Shown here: piece after piece, positions 28,713-35,783 of the stretch
Position numbering within the stretch: position 1 is the stretch's first letter
How the letters are laid out: each line of letters begins with the position of its first letter
Assembly: GCA_937884605.1 (NCBI GenBank)
Contig: CALGDM010000010.1
Coordinates: 1 to 36,156, forward strand
Length of the DNA: 36,156 nt
From: an uncultured Spiribacter sp.
Lineage (GTDB): Bacteria; Pseudomonadota; Gammaproteobacteria; Nitrococcales; Nitrococcaceae
Reading direction: 5' to 3'
Position numbers and translations under genes: made by a program
Notes under the pieces: model-generated
What the model saw: only the letters and a program-made list of their open reading frames with translations
What the model was told of the DNA's origin: nothing
The model's database searches: none

Positions 28713-28790
28713 AGAAAAGGCTCCCTGTCGTTGTTTCACGCGGATTTTTCAGGCGCTAGCATAACGCGTTCAAGCCACAAGGAGCAGCCC

Positions 28791-29294
28791 GTGGGCCTGC
28801 CTGCTATCGAGATCATTGCCGTTGAGCGGCGCCCCGCGAGCCCGCATCGGGCGCTGTGGCATGGCCCATGGGGGACGCTTCTGCTGATCGGTGATGCACA
28901 GTACCTGAGTGCCGCGGTATTCCAGGGACCGGCGCCGAGCCGACCGGGACTGGCCCGGCCCCTGCCTGCGCCCTGGGGCGGACGACTGCGGCTGCGACTG
29001 GCCCTGCAGGGGACCGCTTTCCAGATCCAGGTCTGGCGCGCGCTGGCCGAACTCCGCGCTGGCGAGCCGGTCAGTTACAGCGAGCTGGCCGCCCGCATTG
29101 ATCGACCCAATGCGGCCCGGGCCGTGGCCTCAGCCGTTGCCGCCAACCCGGTCCCGGTTTTGCTGCCCTGCCACCGGGTCATTCGACGCAACGGCCAGAT
29201 CGGCCAATACATCGGCGGGCCGGCCCGCAAGCAACGCCTGCTGATCGACGAGCGCACTCACAGGAGAGACCCCGATGTTCACGAACGCCCCTGA
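28791..29294 (+). CDS. ogt: Methylated-DNA-[protein]-cysteine S-methyltransferase (Ogt)
   Basis: The protein removes O6-alkyl groups from guanine by irreversible transfer to its own cysteine. The 167-residue sequence has a short N-terminal domain (1-70) and the DNA-binding/active domain with FQIQVWRALAELRAGEPVSYSELA, the Arg-finger region NAARAVASAVAANP, and the acceptor PCHRVI with Cys127. The GTG start at 28791 is preceded by AAGGAG at 6 nt, an excellent ribosome site. The reading frame is open far upstream but that part is antisense to the M42 gene. The last 20 nt overlap the photolyase-like gene, so alkylation repair and a putative light-dependent repair or sensing protein are made together. 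Confidence 0.93.
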   Translation: MGLPAIEIIAVERRPASPHRALWHGPWGTLLLIGDAQYLSAAVFQGPAPSRPGLARPLPAPWGGRLRLRLALQGTAFQIQVWRALAELRAGEPVSYSELAARIDRPNAARAVASAVAANPVPVLLPCHRVIRRNGQIGQYIGGPARKQRLLIDERTHRRDPDVHERP

Positions 29295-30519
29295 GGCCAG
29301 CCACCCCGCGGGATCCGCCCGGCTCGAAGCCTTCATCCCCCACGCCGGTGCCGACTATGCGCGCGGCCGCAATCACGACCTGGGGCCGGACGGCGATAAC
29401 GCGGTCTCCGCCCTGTCGCCCTGGCTGCGGCATCGTCTGCTGCTCGAGGAGACGGCCATCGACGCCGCGATCGAAGCCCACGGCCTGGATGGCGCCGAAA
29501 AGTTCATCCAGGAGGTCTGCTGGCGGACCTACTGGAAGGGTTATCTCGAGCGCCGGCCGGTGCACTGGCACGACTACCGCGCCGCCTGCGACGAGGCCCA
29601 CGAGCAGGTGACAAAGGACCGGCGGCTCGCCGCCGACCTGCAGGCTGCGCTGGACGGCAATACCGACATCGACGCCTTCAACTTCTGGGTACATGAACTG
29701 CGCGAGACCGGGTATCTGCACAATCACGCCCGGATGTGGTTTGCGAGTATCTGGGTGTTCACCCTCGAGCTGCCCTGGGCGCTGGGCGCGGATTTTTTCC
29801 TGCGCCATCTGCTCGACGGCGATCCCGCCTCGAATACCCTGTCCTGGCGCTGGGTGGCCGGGCTGCACACACCGGGCAAGCCCTATATCGCCCGCTCATC
29901 GAACATCAACAAGTACACCCAGGGCCGATTCAACCCCGGCTATCGCATCAACACCCAGGTCGAGATCCCCGAGGGTGTCGAGCGCCCGCCGGTGGGCCCG
30001 CCACCGCTGGCGGTGGACTGGCGGATGACGCCCACCACCGGCCTGCTGATCACCGAGGATGATCTGCTCCCCGAGTCCCTTTTCGGCGAGCGGGACTGGC
30101 CAGTGGTGATCGCCGTGCAGAGCACTGACTGGCGCAGCAGCGGCCCCGTGGCCGACCGGCCCCGGGCGTTTGCCGCCGACGGCCTTGCCGATGCCCTTGC
30201 CCGCAACCCGGGGCGCCAGGCAGTGGGGCCGGTGGATCTGGCAACCGCCGAGGGACTGACCGCCGTGCGCGATGCCGCCGCCGCGGCCGGCGTCGATACG
30301 CTGCTCACGCCCTATGTGCCGATTGGCCCCACCGCGGATGCCATGGCGGCGCTCGATACGGTTCTGGGTGCCGCCGGCATCCGCCGTCAGGCCGTGCCCC
30401 GGGACTGGGACGTTCTCCACTGGCCGGCCTCCACCCACGGGTTTTTCCGTTTCTGGAAGGCCGCGCGGCCGCTGATCATGGAGCGCACCAGTGCGGGCTC
30501 TCTGTCGCGCGGGGGGTGA
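29275..30519 (+). CDS. Photolyase/cryptochrome-like FAD-binding protein with apparently swapped domain order
   Basis: The 414-residue protein starts directly with the helical FAD-binding domain of the photolyase/cryptochrome family: ALSPWLRHRLLLEE (46-59), FIQEVCWRTYWKGYL (78-92), LHNHARMWFASIWVFTLELPW (148-168, like the N-x-R-M-x-x-A-S-F motif), HLLDGDPASNTLSWRWVAG (178-196) and YTQGRFNP (214-221). The usual N-terminal antenna-binding alpha/beta domain is missing in front. Instead, residues about 275-402 form an alpha/beta region (WPVVIAVQSTDWR through DTLLTPYVPIGPTADAM) ending in THGFFRFWKAARPLI, which recalls the TPFWRAW linker that normally joins the antenna domain to the FAD domain. This suggests circular permutation. 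It could be a functional photolyase or a blue-light sensor. The start overlaps ogt by 20 nt; GGAGAG lies about 7 nt upstream. Confidence 0.83.
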   Translation: MFTNAPEASHPAGSARLEAFIPHAGADYARGRNHDLGPDGDNAVSALSPWLRHRLLLEETAIDAAIEAHGLDGAEKFIQEVCWRTYWKGYLERRPVHWHDYRAACDEAHEQVTKDRRLAADLQAALDGNTDIDAFNFWVHELRETGYLHNHARMWFASIWVFTLELPWALGADFFLRHLLDGDPASNTLSWRWVAGLHTPGKPYIARSSNINKYTQGRFNPGYRINTQVEIPEGVERPPVGPPPLAVDWRMTPTTGLLITEDDLLPESLFGERDWPVVIAVQSTDWRSSGPVADRPRAFAADGLADALARNPGRQAVGPVDLATAEGLTAVRDAAAAAGVDTLLTPYVPIGPTADAMAALDTVLGAAGIRRQAVPRDWDVLHWPASTHGFFRFWKAARPLIMERTSAGSLSRGG

Positions 30520-30575: not shown

Positions 30576-31874
30576 ATGAGCACCTATCAGGTCCCCGCCG
30601 ACGGCGCCCCGGTCACCCTGGACAATGGCGTACTCAACGTCCCCGACAACCCGATCATCACCTACATCGAGGGGGATGGCATTGGTGTTGATATCACCCC
30701 GGTGATGCAGCGCGTGGTGGATGCCGCGGTGGAGAAGGCCTATGGCGGCAGCCGCAAGGTGCACTGGATGGAAGTGCTTGCCGGCGAGAAGGCCAACAAC
30801 GAAGTCGGCGCCTGGCTGCCCGACGAGACCGTTGATGCCATTCGCAAGTACCTGATCTCGATCAAGGGGCCGATGACCACGCCGGTGGGCGGCGGCATCC
30901 GCTCACTCAACGTCGCCCTGCGCCAGGTGCTTGACCTGTATGTCTGCCAGCGCCCGGTGCGCTGGTTCAACGGTGTTCCCTCGCCGGTCAAAAACCCCGA
31001 TCAGGTCGATATGGTGATCTTTCGCGAGAACACCGAAGACATCTACGCCGGGATCGAGTTCGAAGCCGGCTCCGAGGAAAACGAGCGCTTCAAGCAGCTG
31101 CTCGCCGAGCATTTCCCCTCCGCGCACGCCAATATCCGCTTCCCCGATGAGTGCGGCTTCGGCATCAAGCCGATCTCGCGCGAGGGCACCGAGCGGCTGG
31201 TGCGGGGCGCGATCCGCTATGCCATCGATAACAAGCGCGAGTCGGTGACGATTGTCCACAAGGGCAACATCATGAAATACACCGAAGGCGCCTTCCGGAC
31301 CTGGGCCTATGAACTGGCCGAGCGCGAGTTTGCCAACGAGACCTACACCTGGGCGGAGTGGGAGCGCACCGTGGCCGAGAAGGGCCAGGAAGCCGCCAAC
31401 GCCGAGCAGGACGCTGCCGTCGCCGCCGGCAAGATCCTGGTCAAGGATTCCATCGCTGACATCACCCTCCAGCAGGTACTCACCCGGCCCACCGACTTCG
31501 AGGTGATCGCTACCATGAACCTCAACGGTGATTACCTCTCCGACGCGCTGGCCGCACAGGTCGGCGGCATCGGCATTGCCCCCGGCGGCAATATCAACGA
31601 GCAGACCGGGCATGCGGTGTTCGAGGCCACCCACGGCACGGCGCCCAAGTACGCCGGCCGCGACATGGTCAACCCGGGCTCGCTGGTCCTCTCCGCGGAG
31701 ATGATGCTGCGACATCTGGGCTGGTCCGAGGCCGCCGATCTCATCCTGACCGGCATGGATTCGGCCATCGCCAGCAAGCATGTCACCTACGACTTTGCCC
31801 GTCTGATGGACGGCGCCACCAAGGTGAGCTGCTCGCAGTTTGGCGAGGCCATGATCAAGCGCATGCAGGCCTGA
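30576..31874 (+). CDS. icd: Isocitrate dehydrogenase, NADP-dependent
   Basis: The enzyme oxidatively decarboxylates isocitrate to 2-oxoglutarate in the TCA cycle, making NADPH. The 432-residue protein closely follows E. coli Icd: [10 protein letters not shown] near the start, [15 protein letters not shown] with the regulatory phosphorylation Ser110 (E. coli Ser113), [12 protein letters not shown], the [15 protein letters not shown] metal-site Asp region, and [13 protein letters not shown]. Conservation of the Ser region and the adjacent aceK show that activity is controlled by reversible phosphorylation. The ATG has GAGAGG about 9 nt upstream. It follows the photolyase-like gene after 56 nt and precedes aceK by 40 nt, an icd-aceK pair instead of the E. 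coli aceBAK operon. Confidence 0.97.
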
Positions 31875-31914: not shown

Positions 31915-33648
31915 ATGACCGATAGCCCCTCCCGCTATCAACAGGTTGCCACCGCGGCGCGTTGCATCCACGACGGCTTTCTCGATTACAACCGCTCGTT
32001 CCGCGAGATCACGGCGCGGGCGGGGCGACGCTTCGAGGAGCGCGACTGGAAAGGCCAAATGGCGGATATCGCGGCCCGGGTCGAGCTCTACGAGCTCTGG
32101 GCCCGGCGCACCGTCGATACCCTGCGCACCGCGATCGGCGACGACCTGGCCGCGCACAGTTTCTGGGCCGAGGTGCGCGAGTGCTTCGGCCGCCGGGTCG
32201 AGGCCGTGCCCGACGCGGGCTTCATGAAAACCTTCTTCAACTCCATTACCCGACGCGTGTTCGGCACCCGCGGGGTGGATGCGGCGGTGGAGTTTGTCCA
32301 GCCGCCGCCCGAGGAAGGGATCGAGTCGCTCACCATGCGCCGCTATCCGTGCTGGAACGACCTCGATCAGGCCTGTCGGCGCGTCCTCGAGGACTTTGCC
32401 TTCGAGCGGTCCTACGGGGACCGGGACGCCGACGCCCGCGGCATGGCCGCCACCATTCGCGAGCAGTTGGGCGGGGTCCAGGCCGACGCCGACTGCCTGC
32501 GCTTTGAGTTCATCGACTCGCATTTCTTTCAGGGCACGCGGGCCTATCTGGTCGGGCGGATGCGCCTGAGCGACGAGATTCGTCCCATCGTGGTGGCGCT
32601 GCGCAACGACGACGAGGGCATCGCGGTGGACGCCGTCCTGCTCACCGCCGATCAGGTCGGCGTGGTGTTCTCCTACACCCGCTCGTACTACTTTGCCGAC
32701 CCCACCTCGGTGGTCGCGGCGGTGCAGTTCCTCCACGGGCTACTGCCCGATAAGCCCATCGACGAGCTCTACACCGTGCTCGGGCGACTGCGCCAGGGCA
32801 AGACCGAGCGCTACCGCCAGCTCATGCACCATCTGGACGCCACGGGGGACGAGTTCGTGCATGCCGCCGGTGATGCCGGGCTGGTGATGATCGTGTTCAC
32901 CCTCCCCTCGTTCAATCTGGTCTTTAAGATCATGCGCGACGTCTTTCGGCCGCCGAAGACCACCACTCAGGAAGACGTCCACCAGAGCTATCGCCTGGTC
33001 TCGCGCCATGATCACGCCGGGCGGCTGATTGATACGCAGTTCTTTCGCAATCTGGAGCTGCCCCGCGAGCGCTTCTCGGAGGCACTGGTTGACGAGCTCA
33101 TGCGTGAGGCCCCGCGAACCGTCGCCGTCAATGGCGATCAGTTGGTGTTTGCCCACGCTTACGTCGAGCGCCGGGTGCGCCCGCTCAACCTCTACATCCG
33201 CGAGGTCGAAGAAGCCGAAGCCAAGCGTGTCATCCTCGATTATGGGCGCTGCATCAAGGATCTGGCCGCCACCAACATCTTCGCCGGCGACCTGCTGCTC
33301 AAGAACTTCGGCGTCACCAGTTCCGGGCGCGTTGTGTTCTACGACTACGACGAGGTGATGCTCGTCAGCGATTGCCGGTTCTATGAGCTGCCCGAGCCCG
33401 ACGAGGATTTTCCGCTCATGGAGCACGCCACCACACGGTTTGTGGGCGCCCACGACATCTTCCCCGAAGAATTCATCCGGTTTCTGGCCATGCCCGCGTT
33501 TTTGCGCCAGACCTTTCTCAGTGAGCACAGCGATCTGCTGACCGCTGAATACTGGCGTGACATCAAGCGCCGACGCGTGGCCGGCGAAGTCGCCGAGATC
33601 GTCCCCTACGCCCGCCAGAGCATTGCGCCCCAGCAGATCACGCTCTAG
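31915..33648 (+). CDS. aceK: Isocitrate dehydrogenase kinase/phosphatase (AceK)
   Basis: AceK phosphorylates and dephosphorylates isocitrate dehydrogenase in one active site, switching carbon between the TCA cycle and the glyoxylate shunt. The 577-residue protein matches E. coli AceK in length. It has the regulatory domain (1 to about 310) and the kinase domain with VFTLPSFNLVFKIMRD (ATP-site Lys338), NIFAGDLLLKNFGVT, and VVFYDYDEVML with Asp477 and Asp479, two residues offset from the E. coli Asp475/Asp477. A GGAG lies 7 nt before the ATG. Being in one unit with its target icd is informative. Its presence implies a glyoxylate shunt, whose aceA and aceB genes are not in this window. The TAG stop shares CTAG with pilT. 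Confidence 0.97.
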   Translation: MTDSPSRYQQVATAARCIHDGFLDYNRSFREITARAGRRFEERDWKGQMADIAARVELYELWARRTVDTLRTAIGDDLAAHSFWAEVRECFGRRVEAVPDAGFMKTFFNSITRRVFGTRGVDAAVEFVQPPPEEGIESLTMRRYPCWNDLDQACRRVLEDFAFERSYGDRDADARGMAATIREQLGGVQADADCLRFEFIDSHFFQGTRAYLVGRMRLSDEIRPIVVALRNDDEGIAVDAVLLTADQVGVVFSYTRSYYFADPTSVVAAVQFLHGLLPDKPIDELYTVLGRLRQGKTERYRQLMHHLDATGDEFVHAAGDAGLVMIVFTLPSFNLVFKIMRDVFRPPKTTTQEDVHQSYRLVSRHDHAGRLIDTQFFRNLELPRERFSEALVDELMREAPRTVAVNGDQLVFAHAYVERRVRPLNLYIREVEEAEAKRVILDYGRCIKDLAATNIFAGDLLLKNFGVTSSGRVVFYDYDEVMLVSDCRFYELPEPDEDFPLMEHATTRFVGAHDIFPEEFIRFLAMPAFLRQTFLSEHSDLLTAEYWRDIKRRRVAGEVAEIVPYARQSIAPQQITL

Positions 33649-34667
33649 CTGTCGGTGACCGTCTTCGCCATTTCGGGGCTGATCTCGCCCCGACGCTGGA
33701 GCTGCTGGAGGGACTGCGCCATGGTCTGCATGCCGTGGGCCTGACCGGTCTGCAGCGCATTGGGTATCTGCGCCAGGTTGCTCTCACGGATCAGGTTTCG
33801 GATCGCCGGCACGGCCATCATGATCTCGAACCCGGCCACCCGGCCGCCGCCTTCGCGCTTTAACAGCGTCTGCGAGATCACGGCAAGCAGTGACTCGGCG
33901 AGCATTGCCCGCACCTGCGCCTGCTCATCGCCGGGGAAGGTGTTGATAATACGGTCAACGCTGCTGGCGGCGGTGCGCGTGTGCAAAGTGCCGAACACCA
34001 GATGCCCCGTCTCCGCCGCGGTCAATGCCAGACGGATGGTATCGGGGTCACGCAGCTCGCCGACCAGGATCACATCGGGATCCTCGCGCAGGGCGGCGCG
34101 AAGCGCATGCTTTGTGTCGATGGTGTGATGCCCCACCTCGCGCTGGGTGATGAGCGCCTGATTGGAGGGATGCACAAACTCGATCGGATCCTCAATGGTC
34201 AGGATATGTTCGGGATACTGGCGATTGCGGTGATCGACCATGGCAGCGAGCGTGGTGGACTTGCCCGAACCGGTGGGACCGGTCACCAGCACCAGTCCGC
34301 GCGAGCGGTCCGAGACCTGCCGGATCACCTCGGGCGCGCCCAGGTCATCCAGCGCCGGGATCTGCTGGGGTATCGCACGCAGGACGACACCCGGGCCATT
34401 GAGCTGCTCGTAGACGTTGACACGGAACCGCCCGGCGCCTTCCACCTGCAGCGCAAAGTCCACCTCGCGGTGGTCGCGATACTGGGCCTGCTGCGCCTCG
34501 TCCATGACCTCGAACAGGGCCTTCTCAAGCGCCTTGTGGGAGATCACCTCGTCGCTGAGTGTGCGCAGATCGCCATCAACACGAATCACCGGCGGCCCGC
34601 CGGCGGCGACGTGCAGGTCCGAGGCTTTGTGCTGCACGGCCTGGGTAATCAGGGCATTGAGGTTCAT
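33645..34667 (-). CDS. pilT: Type IV pilus retraction ATPase PilT
   Basis: PilT is the hexameric cytoplasmic motor that depolymerises type IV pili, driving twitching and DNA uptake. The 340-residue protein has the Walker A GPTGSGKST (130-138), Asp box ILTIEDPIEFVH, Walker B DVILVGELRDPDTI, the His box GTLHTRTA, and the diagnostic AIRNLIRE motif of PilT. The C-terminal ISPEMAKTVTDS is short, favouring PilT over the longer PilU. AGGAG lies 8 nt before the ATG. There is no yggS or pilU neighbour; instead it is divergent from two pilin-like genes. The stop codon overlaps that of aceK. Confidence 0.95.
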   Translation of the reverse strand: MNLNALITQAVQHKASDLHVAAGGPPVIRVDGDLRTLSDEVISHKALEKALFEVMDEAQQAQYRDHREVDFALQVEGAGRFRVNVYEQLNGPGVVLRAIPQQIPALDDLGAPEVIRQVSDRSRGLVLVTGPTGSGKSTTLAAMVDHRNRQYPEHILTIEDPIEFVHPSNQALITQREVGHHTIDTKHALRAALREDPDVILVGELRDPDTIRLALTAAETGHLVFGTLHTRTAASSVDRIINTFPGDEQAQVRAMLAESLLAVISQTLLKREGGGRVAGFEIMMAVPAIRNLIRESNLAQIPNALQTGQAHGMQTMAQSLQQLQRRGEISPEMAKTVTDS

Positions 34668-34762: not shown

Positions 34763-35227
34763 ATGTCTGATCCCATGAACCACCCACTCCAAAAGGCGGG
34801 CAGAGCCGGGTTTACGCTGGTCGAGATGGTCATTGTCCTCGCCGTGCTCGCGGTCCTGGCCGCCGTAGCAATCCCACAGATCCAGCAAATCCAAAGGCAG
34901 GTCGAGCTCAACAATGTTGCGAGGAGTCTCGCCAGTGCCGCCGAGCACTCCTTCGCGCTGCAAGTGAGCGACCAGAACGGGTGGCCGGGCGTATGGACAA
35001 CGGCCTACGGCGTCAACATTTGCGATGCCCTCAATGACTTGAGCAGCAATCTGGTGCGGCCCTCCGAAAACGGGGGGAGTTACGGCATCGAGATCCCCGA
35101 CGGGTACATTGTTGCTCCCGCCGCGAATGCATCTTCAGAGGCCGTTACCTTCAGCGTTCCCAATGCGACGGGCGGAAGTCGGGATAGTCCGACCACGTCG
35201 GTCCTCTGTGCGCTGATCCCGGAGTAA
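34763..35227 (+). CDS. Type IV pilin-like protein (prepilin) 1
   Basis: The 154-residue protein has a class III prepilin leader: a 16-residue basic leader ending in Gly, cleavage before Phe17 (GFTLVEMVIVLAVLAVLAAVAIP), and the conserved Glu at mature position 5 (E21). A hydrophobic helix then enters a globular C-terminal domain with two cysteines, one in GVNICDAL and one in SVLCALIP, that could form the pilin disulfide loop. The ATG at 34763 has GGGTAG directly before it; a second ATG at 34775 would give a 12-residue leader and is equally possible. It is probably a major or minor pilin processed by PilD and retracted by PilT. Pseudopilin identity cannot be excluded. Confidence 0.85.
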   Translation: MSDPMNHPLQKAGRAGFTLVEMVIVLAVLAVLAAVAIPQIQQIQRQVELNNVARSLASAAEHSFALQVSDQNGWPGVWTTAYGVNICDALNDLSSNLVRPSENGGSYGIEIPDGYIVAPAANASSEAVTFSVPNATGGSRDSPTTSVLCALIPE

Positions 35228-35321
35228 TCCCGGCGCGGAAGCTGTAGCGACCGGACGAAGGATGAGACAATCTGAAACACGATGTAGAGGGGTTGAGCAA
35301 AGAGAGAGTCTGGAGGTGGTT

Positions 35322-35783
35322 ATGAAGACATTTGATCGGGCAAGTCAAAAGCAATATGGCTTTACATTGATTGAGCTCGTTATTGTTTTGGCAGTGCTCG
35401 GCGCGCTCTCAGCGATCGCAATACCTCAGCTCACTGGGCTTGAGGACGAGGCGGAGTTGCAGGCAATAGCCGCAAGCGCCTCATCCGAAATCAACAATGC
35501 ATTCGCGCGGGATCTAGCGGCGGGCGAAGCGGATGATACGTTCGGTGGAACCGGCGTAAATTGGGGAGATGACGAAATTTCTTGTCAAGCTGCGAATATC
35601 TGGGGAGAAGACAACCCCGAAACCAATGCGAACCTCGTTTTTGAATCGCTCGTTGGGTACAGAGCTTTTTATGGTGTGAATGTAGATCCCCCGAACGCCG
35701 CCCCAATAACAGTGCCGACGTATGTAAGCGGCGTAATTGGTTCTTCCCGCAACTGTTACATTAGGAAGAAAACTGCCCCATAA
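35322..35783 (+). CDS. Type IV pilin-like protein (prepilin) 2
   Basis: The 153-residue protein has a 13-residue leader, cleavage site QYG/FTLIELVIVLAVLGALSAIAIP, and Glu at mature position 5 (E18). The C-terminal domain is acidic, with cysteines in SCQAAN and RNCYIRK that could form a terminal disulfide loop. The start has an excellent GGAGGT 5 nt upstream; an in-frame ATG at 35262 lacks this. GC content is about 40 to 53% in sampled 60-base lines, far lower than the upstream genes, which suggests recent acquisition or diversification. The N-terminal helix resembles that of the first pilin but the C-terminal domains do not, so they are not simple recent duplicates. Confidence 0.87.
   Translation: MKTFDRASQKQYGFTLIELVIVLAVLGALSAIAIPQLTGLEDEAELQAIAASASSEINNAFARDLAAGEADDTFGGTGVNWGDDEISCQAANIWGEDNPETNANLVFESLVGYRAFYGVNVDPPNAAPITVPTYVSGVIGSSRNCYIRKKTAP

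Follow-up and report, generated by a model that had tools for sequence, protein, structure and literature searches.

A probable NewPHL photolyase of an uncultured Spiribacter, with the FAD domain ahead of the alpha/beta domain

Passages of a 2026 paper (PMC13274461) speak of "NewPHLs or SPLs" with an "inverted domain topology" that repair cyclobutane pyrimidine dimers (CPDs) in single-stranded DNA, and credit the NewPHL class to Emmerich et al. 2020, with members from Dinoroseobacter, Methylobacterium, Erythrobacter and Rhodospirillum. The Dinoroseobacter shibae NewPHL has, according to an excerpt of PMC8948257, a mere Trp dyad and is called ancestral there, and a portion of PMC12083526 lists NewPHLs among the families conserving a flavin-facing Asn. 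SPLs (Xu et al. 2021) are described, in what citing papers say of them, as being without an alpha/beta domain, and SPL and NewPHL have both been proposed as near the photolyase origin, again in statements of later papers including PMC8948257. The abbreviation SPL has an unrelated meaning, spore photoproduct lyase, in the relevant part of PMC12029717. Here we describe a protein with inverted topology encoded in the window, by which we mean the whole stretch of 36,156 nucleotides that was analysed. Four FeS-cluster cysteines are a feature of some SPL members, and the named NewPHLs (D. shibae A8LJA9, M. mesophilicum M7YZC8, E. litoralis Q2N8F4 and R. centenum B6IPR5) we take to be alphaproteobacterial. 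Searches of a literature library on photolyase and circular permutation listed nothing relevant, judging by title and abstract.

Domain layout, relatives and neighbourhood

The preliminary description held that the protein begins with the FAD-binding helical domain and has no N-terminal antenna domain, and Pfam, the matches to solved sequences and the short upstream frame all agree with this. FAD_binding_7 is found at residues 77-211 (E 1.4e-19), covering profile positions 1-132 of 203 and leaving 133-203 unmatched; to judge from this match, the FAD domain lacks its usual end or has something else in its place. The DNA_photolyase domain (PF00875) is absent from the Pfam result for the whole protein, in which the sole other match is a sub-threshold one to BLH_phosphatase. 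An identification of the C-terminal domain with that family was rejected: the match lies below the curated cut-off, and 8 of 66 members match it, with a best E of 3.9e-5 over 41 residues. All 17 solved sequences listed match within residues 6-224 and enter at their own residue 175 or later, that is, in their FAD part or C-terminal half. The 414-codon reading frame (Table 1) lies in a stop-to-stop frame of 424 codons, which opens just 10 codons further, and the first 20 bases of the gene lie within the upstream one; an antenna domain ahead of the FAD domain would not fit. A wrong start codon or a frameshift masking such a domain was ruled out on the strength of those 10 codons and of the lack of any N-domain match upstream in the relatives (below).

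Table 1. Features of the photolyase locus in the window
Feature	Position	Strand	Residues	Basis or remark
O6-methylguanine-DNA methyltransferase DNA-binding-domain gene	28746..29294	+		PF01035, E 6e-28; neighbour; start approximate
Probable NewPHL-type photolyase gene, FAD domain then alpha/beta domain	29275..30519	+	414 aa	ORF, Pfam, model
N-terminal FAD-binding helical domain	29302..29949	+	10-225	Solved-sequence matches, Pfam, model
NHARM	29722..29736	+	150-154	Putative active-site counterparts; alignments
DGDPASNTLSWRW	29815..29853	+	181-193	FAD-contact Asp/Asn counterparts, Trp191 and Trp193
Inter-domain linker	29950..30033	+	226-253	At the place of the last part of the ordinary FAD domain
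C-terminal alpha/beta domain, probable counterpart of a relocated photolyase N-terminal domain	30034..30432	+	254-386	Model, structure search, profiles
Closing linker motif THGFFRFWKAARPLI	30433..30477	+	387-401	Putative counterpart of photolyase ...VFTPFWK... linker; profile alignments

Relatives are encoded in at least 589 candidate stretches of the genome collection (tblastn, E 1e-3), with Rhodobacteraceae, Sphingomonadales and Rhodospirillaceae among their hosts, and 70 of the 80 relatives kept are labelled alphaproteobacteria. An even sample of 299 Pseudomonadota genomes has a full-length member in 12, the window genome counted (E 3e-130 or better), and a FAD-only form in a thirteenth (G074). 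All 14 genomes of the window genus, its own included, give a match at E 1.3e-112 or better, which in one of them (G003) lies in two pieces on different contigs; outside the genus, 6 of 45 other genomes searched match at E 1e-96 or better. Nine PLSDB plasmid records match as well, 7 of them annotated "FAD-binding domain-containing protein". A highly diverged permuted member (L172, open frame of 399 aa) comes from a 1.7 Mb genome (G444) that the genome collection assigns to the cyanobacteria, and is the longest end branch of the FAD-domain tree described below.

The window protein and 99 relatives all keep the order FAD domain then alpha/beta domain, with at least 100 residues beyond position 254 in every one of these 100 rows, including one cut by a contig end. 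The median in-frame room ahead of the FAD domain is 32 residues, and 9 of the 100 rows could hold 130 or more there. The relatives' start codons were chosen nearest the expected place, and a profile of ordinary photolyase N-domains matches none of the relatives' upstream stretches of at least 60 residues. An assembly artefact was ruled out, the same layout being present in relatives from many genomes at 92% to about 41% identity. The swapped order is confirmed as genuine and fits a class already published. The earlier claim of a permutation is supported. The preliminary description had said that it would lose novelty if the architecture were already a named class, and that is the case with NewPHL, so that the novelty is largely lost.

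In this window and at 7 further loci of the genus, a DNA-alkyltransferase gene adjoins the photolyase gene. Directly downstream in the window lie an isocitrate dehydrogenase-type gene (30576-31874) and AceK, isocitrate dehydrogenase kinase/phosphatase (31915-33648), then on the minus strand a T2SSE-type ATPase gene (33645-34667), which we take to be PilT-like, and, diverging from it, two plus-strand ORFs (34763-35783) that are presumably pilin-like from their N-terminal motif. Neighbour counts refer to a search of all 100 loci; 57 of the 80 loci from the genome collection exceed 12 kb, and Pfam was run on one example each of the conventional and the DPRP-type photolyase-related neighbours. In L053, L063 and L081 the NewPHL gene forms a photolyase cluster with nearby matches to conventional and DPRP-type photolyase-related genes, PF04244 being found in the neighbouring gene of L081, and similar clusters with weaker or partial matches are seen in L075, L046 and L095.

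Active site and proposed function

The residues expected of a CPD photolyase are retained. In Anacystis photolyase numbering we take E80, W83, N150, M154 and W193 to be E283, W286, N349, M353 and W392, and N187, W191 and W168 to be N386, W390 and W367, the positions printed in the alignment being one lower than these numbers. Every one of these residues is invariant in the 66 aligned sequences, including the Trp dyad (W191 and W168) and the flavin-facing Asn (N187), and the motifs quoted in the preliminary description (NHARM, DGDPASN, WRWVAG and THGFFRFWKAARPLI) are all present in the translation. No conserved counterpart of the distal Trp of the usual triad was found at the tabulated positions 120-126, a region of uncertain alignment where position 122 is Trp in 16 of 66 sequences. 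CxxC is absent from residues 190-270 in all 100 rows of the window family, and position 134, the first FeS ligand position, is Cys in 36 of 66 sequences and Ala in the window protein; this leftover Cys suggests that ancestors of the family may have had an FeS cluster.

Because the domain order, the host groups of the relatives, the Trp dyad and the conserved Asn all fit, we assign the protein to NewPHL, an assignment that draws on these points of the class description. With its CPD-type active site in the FAD domain and its swapped domain order it is very probably a NewPHL photolyase. By analogy with the published class its most likely function would be that of a CPD photolyase with single-stranded DNA as preferred substrate. 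Reduced FAD, excited by blue/UV-A light, would pass an electron to a CPD that has been flipped into a pocket lined by E80, W83, N150, M154 and W193, the dimer would be split and the electron would then be returned to FAD. Photoreduction of FAD would proceed through the Trp191-Trp168 dyad, and the C-terminal domain is predicted to pack onto the FAD domain and so to close the flavin pocket. A cryptochrome-like light sensor that has kept FAD and lost repair activity is conceivable in a genome with two other photolyase-family genes, where a third could be free for another role, yet all 66 members keep the five residues that contact the CPD or the DNA, a conventional photolyase query was matched in the fetched flanks of 10 of 80 loci (6 of those 10 also matching a DPRP query), and the class is reported to repair CPDs in the passages of PMC13274461 cited above. 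We regard a sensor as most improbable and continue to treat the protein as a repair enzyme.

The C-terminal alpha/beta domain

AlphaFold2, run with 66 aligned sequences (that of the window protein and 65 non-redundant ones from 80 loci of the genome collection), produced a whole-protein model with a mean pLDDT of 94.6 and a pTM of 0.92. Structure search with this model puts photolyases at the top, in matches that span some 220-280 columns, and each of the 17 matches with E up to 0.001 is a photolyase or cryptochrome. Residues 245-404 modelled alone (mean pLDDT 94.2, pTM 0.88) form five strands alternating with helices, with two helices at the end. A Foldseek search of the PDB with this isolated domain gave no match at E 0.001; cryptochrome/photolyase chains make up 17 of the 50 rows listed (probability 0.89-0.99, TM 0.44-0.57), PDB 4i6j, which we assume to be such a chain, being counted among them. 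They are the best-fitting group among those 50 rows, with the top TM-scores, the best other row reaching TM 0.44 at probability 0.96. Ranked by E-value the first row is an Argonaute chain of TM 0.31, and many Rossmann-like folds match the domain at E-values as good as those of photolyases. The latter would suit a chance fusion in which a truncated FAD domain acquired a Rossmann-like or USP-like domain of unrelated origin, with no true permutation; the highest TM-scores, belonging as they do to photolyase chains, speak against it.

Profile searches with the two halves gave different outcomes, the FAD half being recovered by FAD_binding_7 while the C-terminal domain touches PF00875 weakly, in 4 of 66 members with a best E of 0.0038. 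A profile search of the PDB with the C-terminal domain had no photolyase among the matches listed, the best being BdcA (YjgI) at E 0.0045. Compared with 67 ordinary photolyase N-domains, the window-family C-terminal profile gives P 3.1e-4 (probability 40%), against 0.012 for the best of 25 controls; the reverse query with the N-domain profile gives P 3e-4 to the window family, against 0.0014. Direct comparisons of the two range from P 1.6e-4 to 3.1e-4 (probability 39-50%). The 25 control clusters are a weak control, several of them looking like off-frame ORFs, and block shuffles were added; 60 shuffled versions reach at best 0.0011 against 2.5e-4 observed. This weakness of the direct similarity to photolyase N-domains is a further point in favour of a chance fusion, as is the Usp family, touched below cut-off by 3 of 6 stand-alone relatives.

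Clearer matches come from other members of the lineage. The C-terminal domains of actinobacterial FeS forms (n=29) match ordinary N-domains with P 2.7e-9 (probability 96%, first 72 columns); a repeat gave 6e-8, with shuffles at best 0.0022, and a smaller N-domain set gave 2.7e-6. The direct profile comparison of window-family with FeS-form C-terminal domains was not significant (P 0.14 to 0.3), and the link between these two runs through stand-alone alpha/beta proteins. A 23-row profile of the latter matches ordinary N-domains with P 5.2e-10 (probability 96.6%, 133 columns) and the window-family C-terminal domain with P 2.9e-6 (probability 88%, 131 columns), where 25 controls reach at best 0.038 and 60 block shuffles per target at best 0.007 (N-domains) and 0.0031 (window family). 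The profile excludes L279, a weak match in a long frame, with which the values become 1.6e-12 and 3.8e-6. The closing linkers pair up, stand-alone RFSRYWK with ordinary FTPFW and with FFRFWK of the window protein, in printed alignments of the same ranges made with the profile that still includes the wrong row L279. The proposal that THGFFRFWKAARPLI is the photolyase linker fits these alignments with N-terminal domains.

The profile matches through the stand-alone halves, together with the paired linkers, thus argue that the C-terminal domain is a relocated photolyase N-terminal domain, and homology of the two, down to the closing linker, is supported at the level of sequence. The alignments through the stand-alone halves are collinear over the full domain, linker included, at the P values just given, and PF00875 is the best Pfam family for 5 of 6 such halves, all below its cut-off; a chance fusion of an unrelated domain is, in our judgement, very unlikely. 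Structure search and profile comparison both indicate relocation, and the fold of the isolated domain and the collinear alignments support the circular permutation, FAD domain before antenna-type domain, put forward in the preliminary description.

Split genes, FeS forms and known classes

A FAD-domain tree of 84 rows gathers the family of the window protein, together with the actinobacterial FeS forms and FAD-only forms, in one clade (100/100) that stands apart from ordinary photolyases. The FeS forms are about 400 aa long and carry a CxxC...CP motif in 28 of 30 sequences, short partial ones counted; among cyanobacterial FAD-only proteins, 10 of 10 show a cysteine motif resembling it. We take the CxxC...C cysteines of the FeS forms to be FeS-cluster ligands, after SPLs, and both the FeS and the FAD-only proteins are here taken to be SPLs. 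The tree as found joins FeS-fused with FAD-only forms (98/90, a bootstrap that had not settled). When NewPHL and FeS-fused forms are constrained to group, an arrangement that the tree search had missed, the log-likelihood exceeds that of the tree as found by 2.17 (p-AU 0.53), and a grouping of NewPHL with FAD-only forms is also not rejected (p-AU 0.47). L191, filed in the FeS group, is a fragment of an ordinary photolyase; the tree places it with the ordinary photolyases, and these tests exclude it. The inference that the FAD-only forms arose by loss was dropped in view of these AU results.

In Deinococcus sp. QL22 and in G074, a genome of the phylum of the window, an alpha/beta gene follows the FAD-only gene with a 4-base overlap, the GTG start of the G074 gene having been assigned in the present analysis. 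On the QL22 plasmid (L256) the FAD-only gene occupies 1384-2157 and the stand-alone alpha/beta gene, annotated 'hypothetical protein', 2154-2675; for the product of the latter PF00875 is the best Pfam family (E 2.3e-4), below cut-off. Among 117 genomes of the cyanobacterial phylum a FAD-only gene is present in 21 (E 3.4e-39 or better) and the alpha/beta gene in the same 21 (E 4.2e-46 or better; loci L258-L278), a co-occurrence with a Fisher p of 1e-23 when relatedness is ignored. The alpha/beta gene is directly downstream in 11 of the 21, with match edges 59-277 bases apart, within 2 kb downstream in 3 and unlinked in 7, on different contigs in 3 of those. A weak alpha/beta match in G348 (8e-7) was left out, and G363 was kept out of the FAD-only set on account of its 451-aa protein (L281, minus strand), which is extended at the C-terminus by a region matching none of the alpha/beta profiles applied. 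The 451-aa protein ends in the linker-like motif MRSFSQFWEVARDQL.

The alpha/beta domain is therefore present in all three groups sampled, as a C-terminal fusion in NewPHL and FeS-SPL and as a separate gene with FAD-only forms, and from this we infer that the two-domain state probably predates the divergence of the NewPHL/SPL lineage from ordinary photolyases. A more specific reading, which we offer tentatively, is that a photolyase split into genes for a FAD half and an alpha/beta half that were re-fused in reversed order in some branches; the FAD-only forms would then be catalytic subunits of heterodimers and not antenna-less ancestors, and the split operons would record the permutation. Part of PMC3441193 describes both a marine Synechococcus two-gene cluster, SynWH7803_0266/0267, for which a heterodimer was suggested in 2012, and a Prochlorococcus FAD-half gene that lacks its partner half, the latter counting against an obligate partner.

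That Prochlorococcus gene also fits the opposite reading, in which NewPHL and SPL did not arise by rearrangement but are relics of a photolyase that was primordial or had no antenna domain. Such an origin is the published proposal for SPLs as later papers quote it, the D. shibae NewPHL is called ancestral in the excerpt of PMC8948257, and our FAD-domain tree does not root the superfamily; the occurrence of the alpha/beta domain in all three groups, fused or as a partner gene, nevertheless makes relics unlikely. If the domain is present throughout the lineage, moved or separate, its supposed absence becomes a weaker argument for placing the lineage near the photolyase origin, and assays of FAD-only members should include their partner. 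The relatives of the window protein thus give fresh clues to the origin of the domain swap.

Among known systems the NewPHLs are closest, sharing with the window protein the inverted domain topology, a bacterial host, the Trp dyad and the conserved flavin-facing Asn; the window gene shows no established difference from them, and it overlaps an O6-methylguanine-DNA methyltransferase-type gene in a small genome (1.8 Mb) taken to be gammaproteobacterial. SPLs, as citing papers quote them, resemble it in having no N-terminal alpha/beta domain and a class I/III-like active site, whereas the window family is without their FeS cysteine motif. The actinobacterial FeS forms depart from the SPL description in having the alpha/beta domain at the C-terminus, and the cyanobacterial short forms in encoding it separately. 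Class I/III CPD photolyases share the FAD-domain fold and active-site residues with the window protein, but their alpha/beta domain precedes a FAD domain whose C-terminal end is complete, the reverse of the order seen here. Pfam did not find in the window protein the PF00875 domain ahead of the FAD domain that is a class I feature, nor the PF04244 N-terminal domain of FeS-BCP/DPRP proteins, a class of which FeS cysteines are a further feature. The PF04244 (DPRP) domain is linked to FeS-BCP (6-4) photolyases. The Synechococcus pair, as described in 2012, resembles the split forms in that its photolyase (alpha/beta) half and its FAD half are encoded by two genes, giving two chains where the window protein is a single fused one. 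Given that cluster the gene pairing is not wholly new; what may be new is that one lineage includes both FeS forms that carry this C-terminal domain and FAD-only forms with a partner gene.
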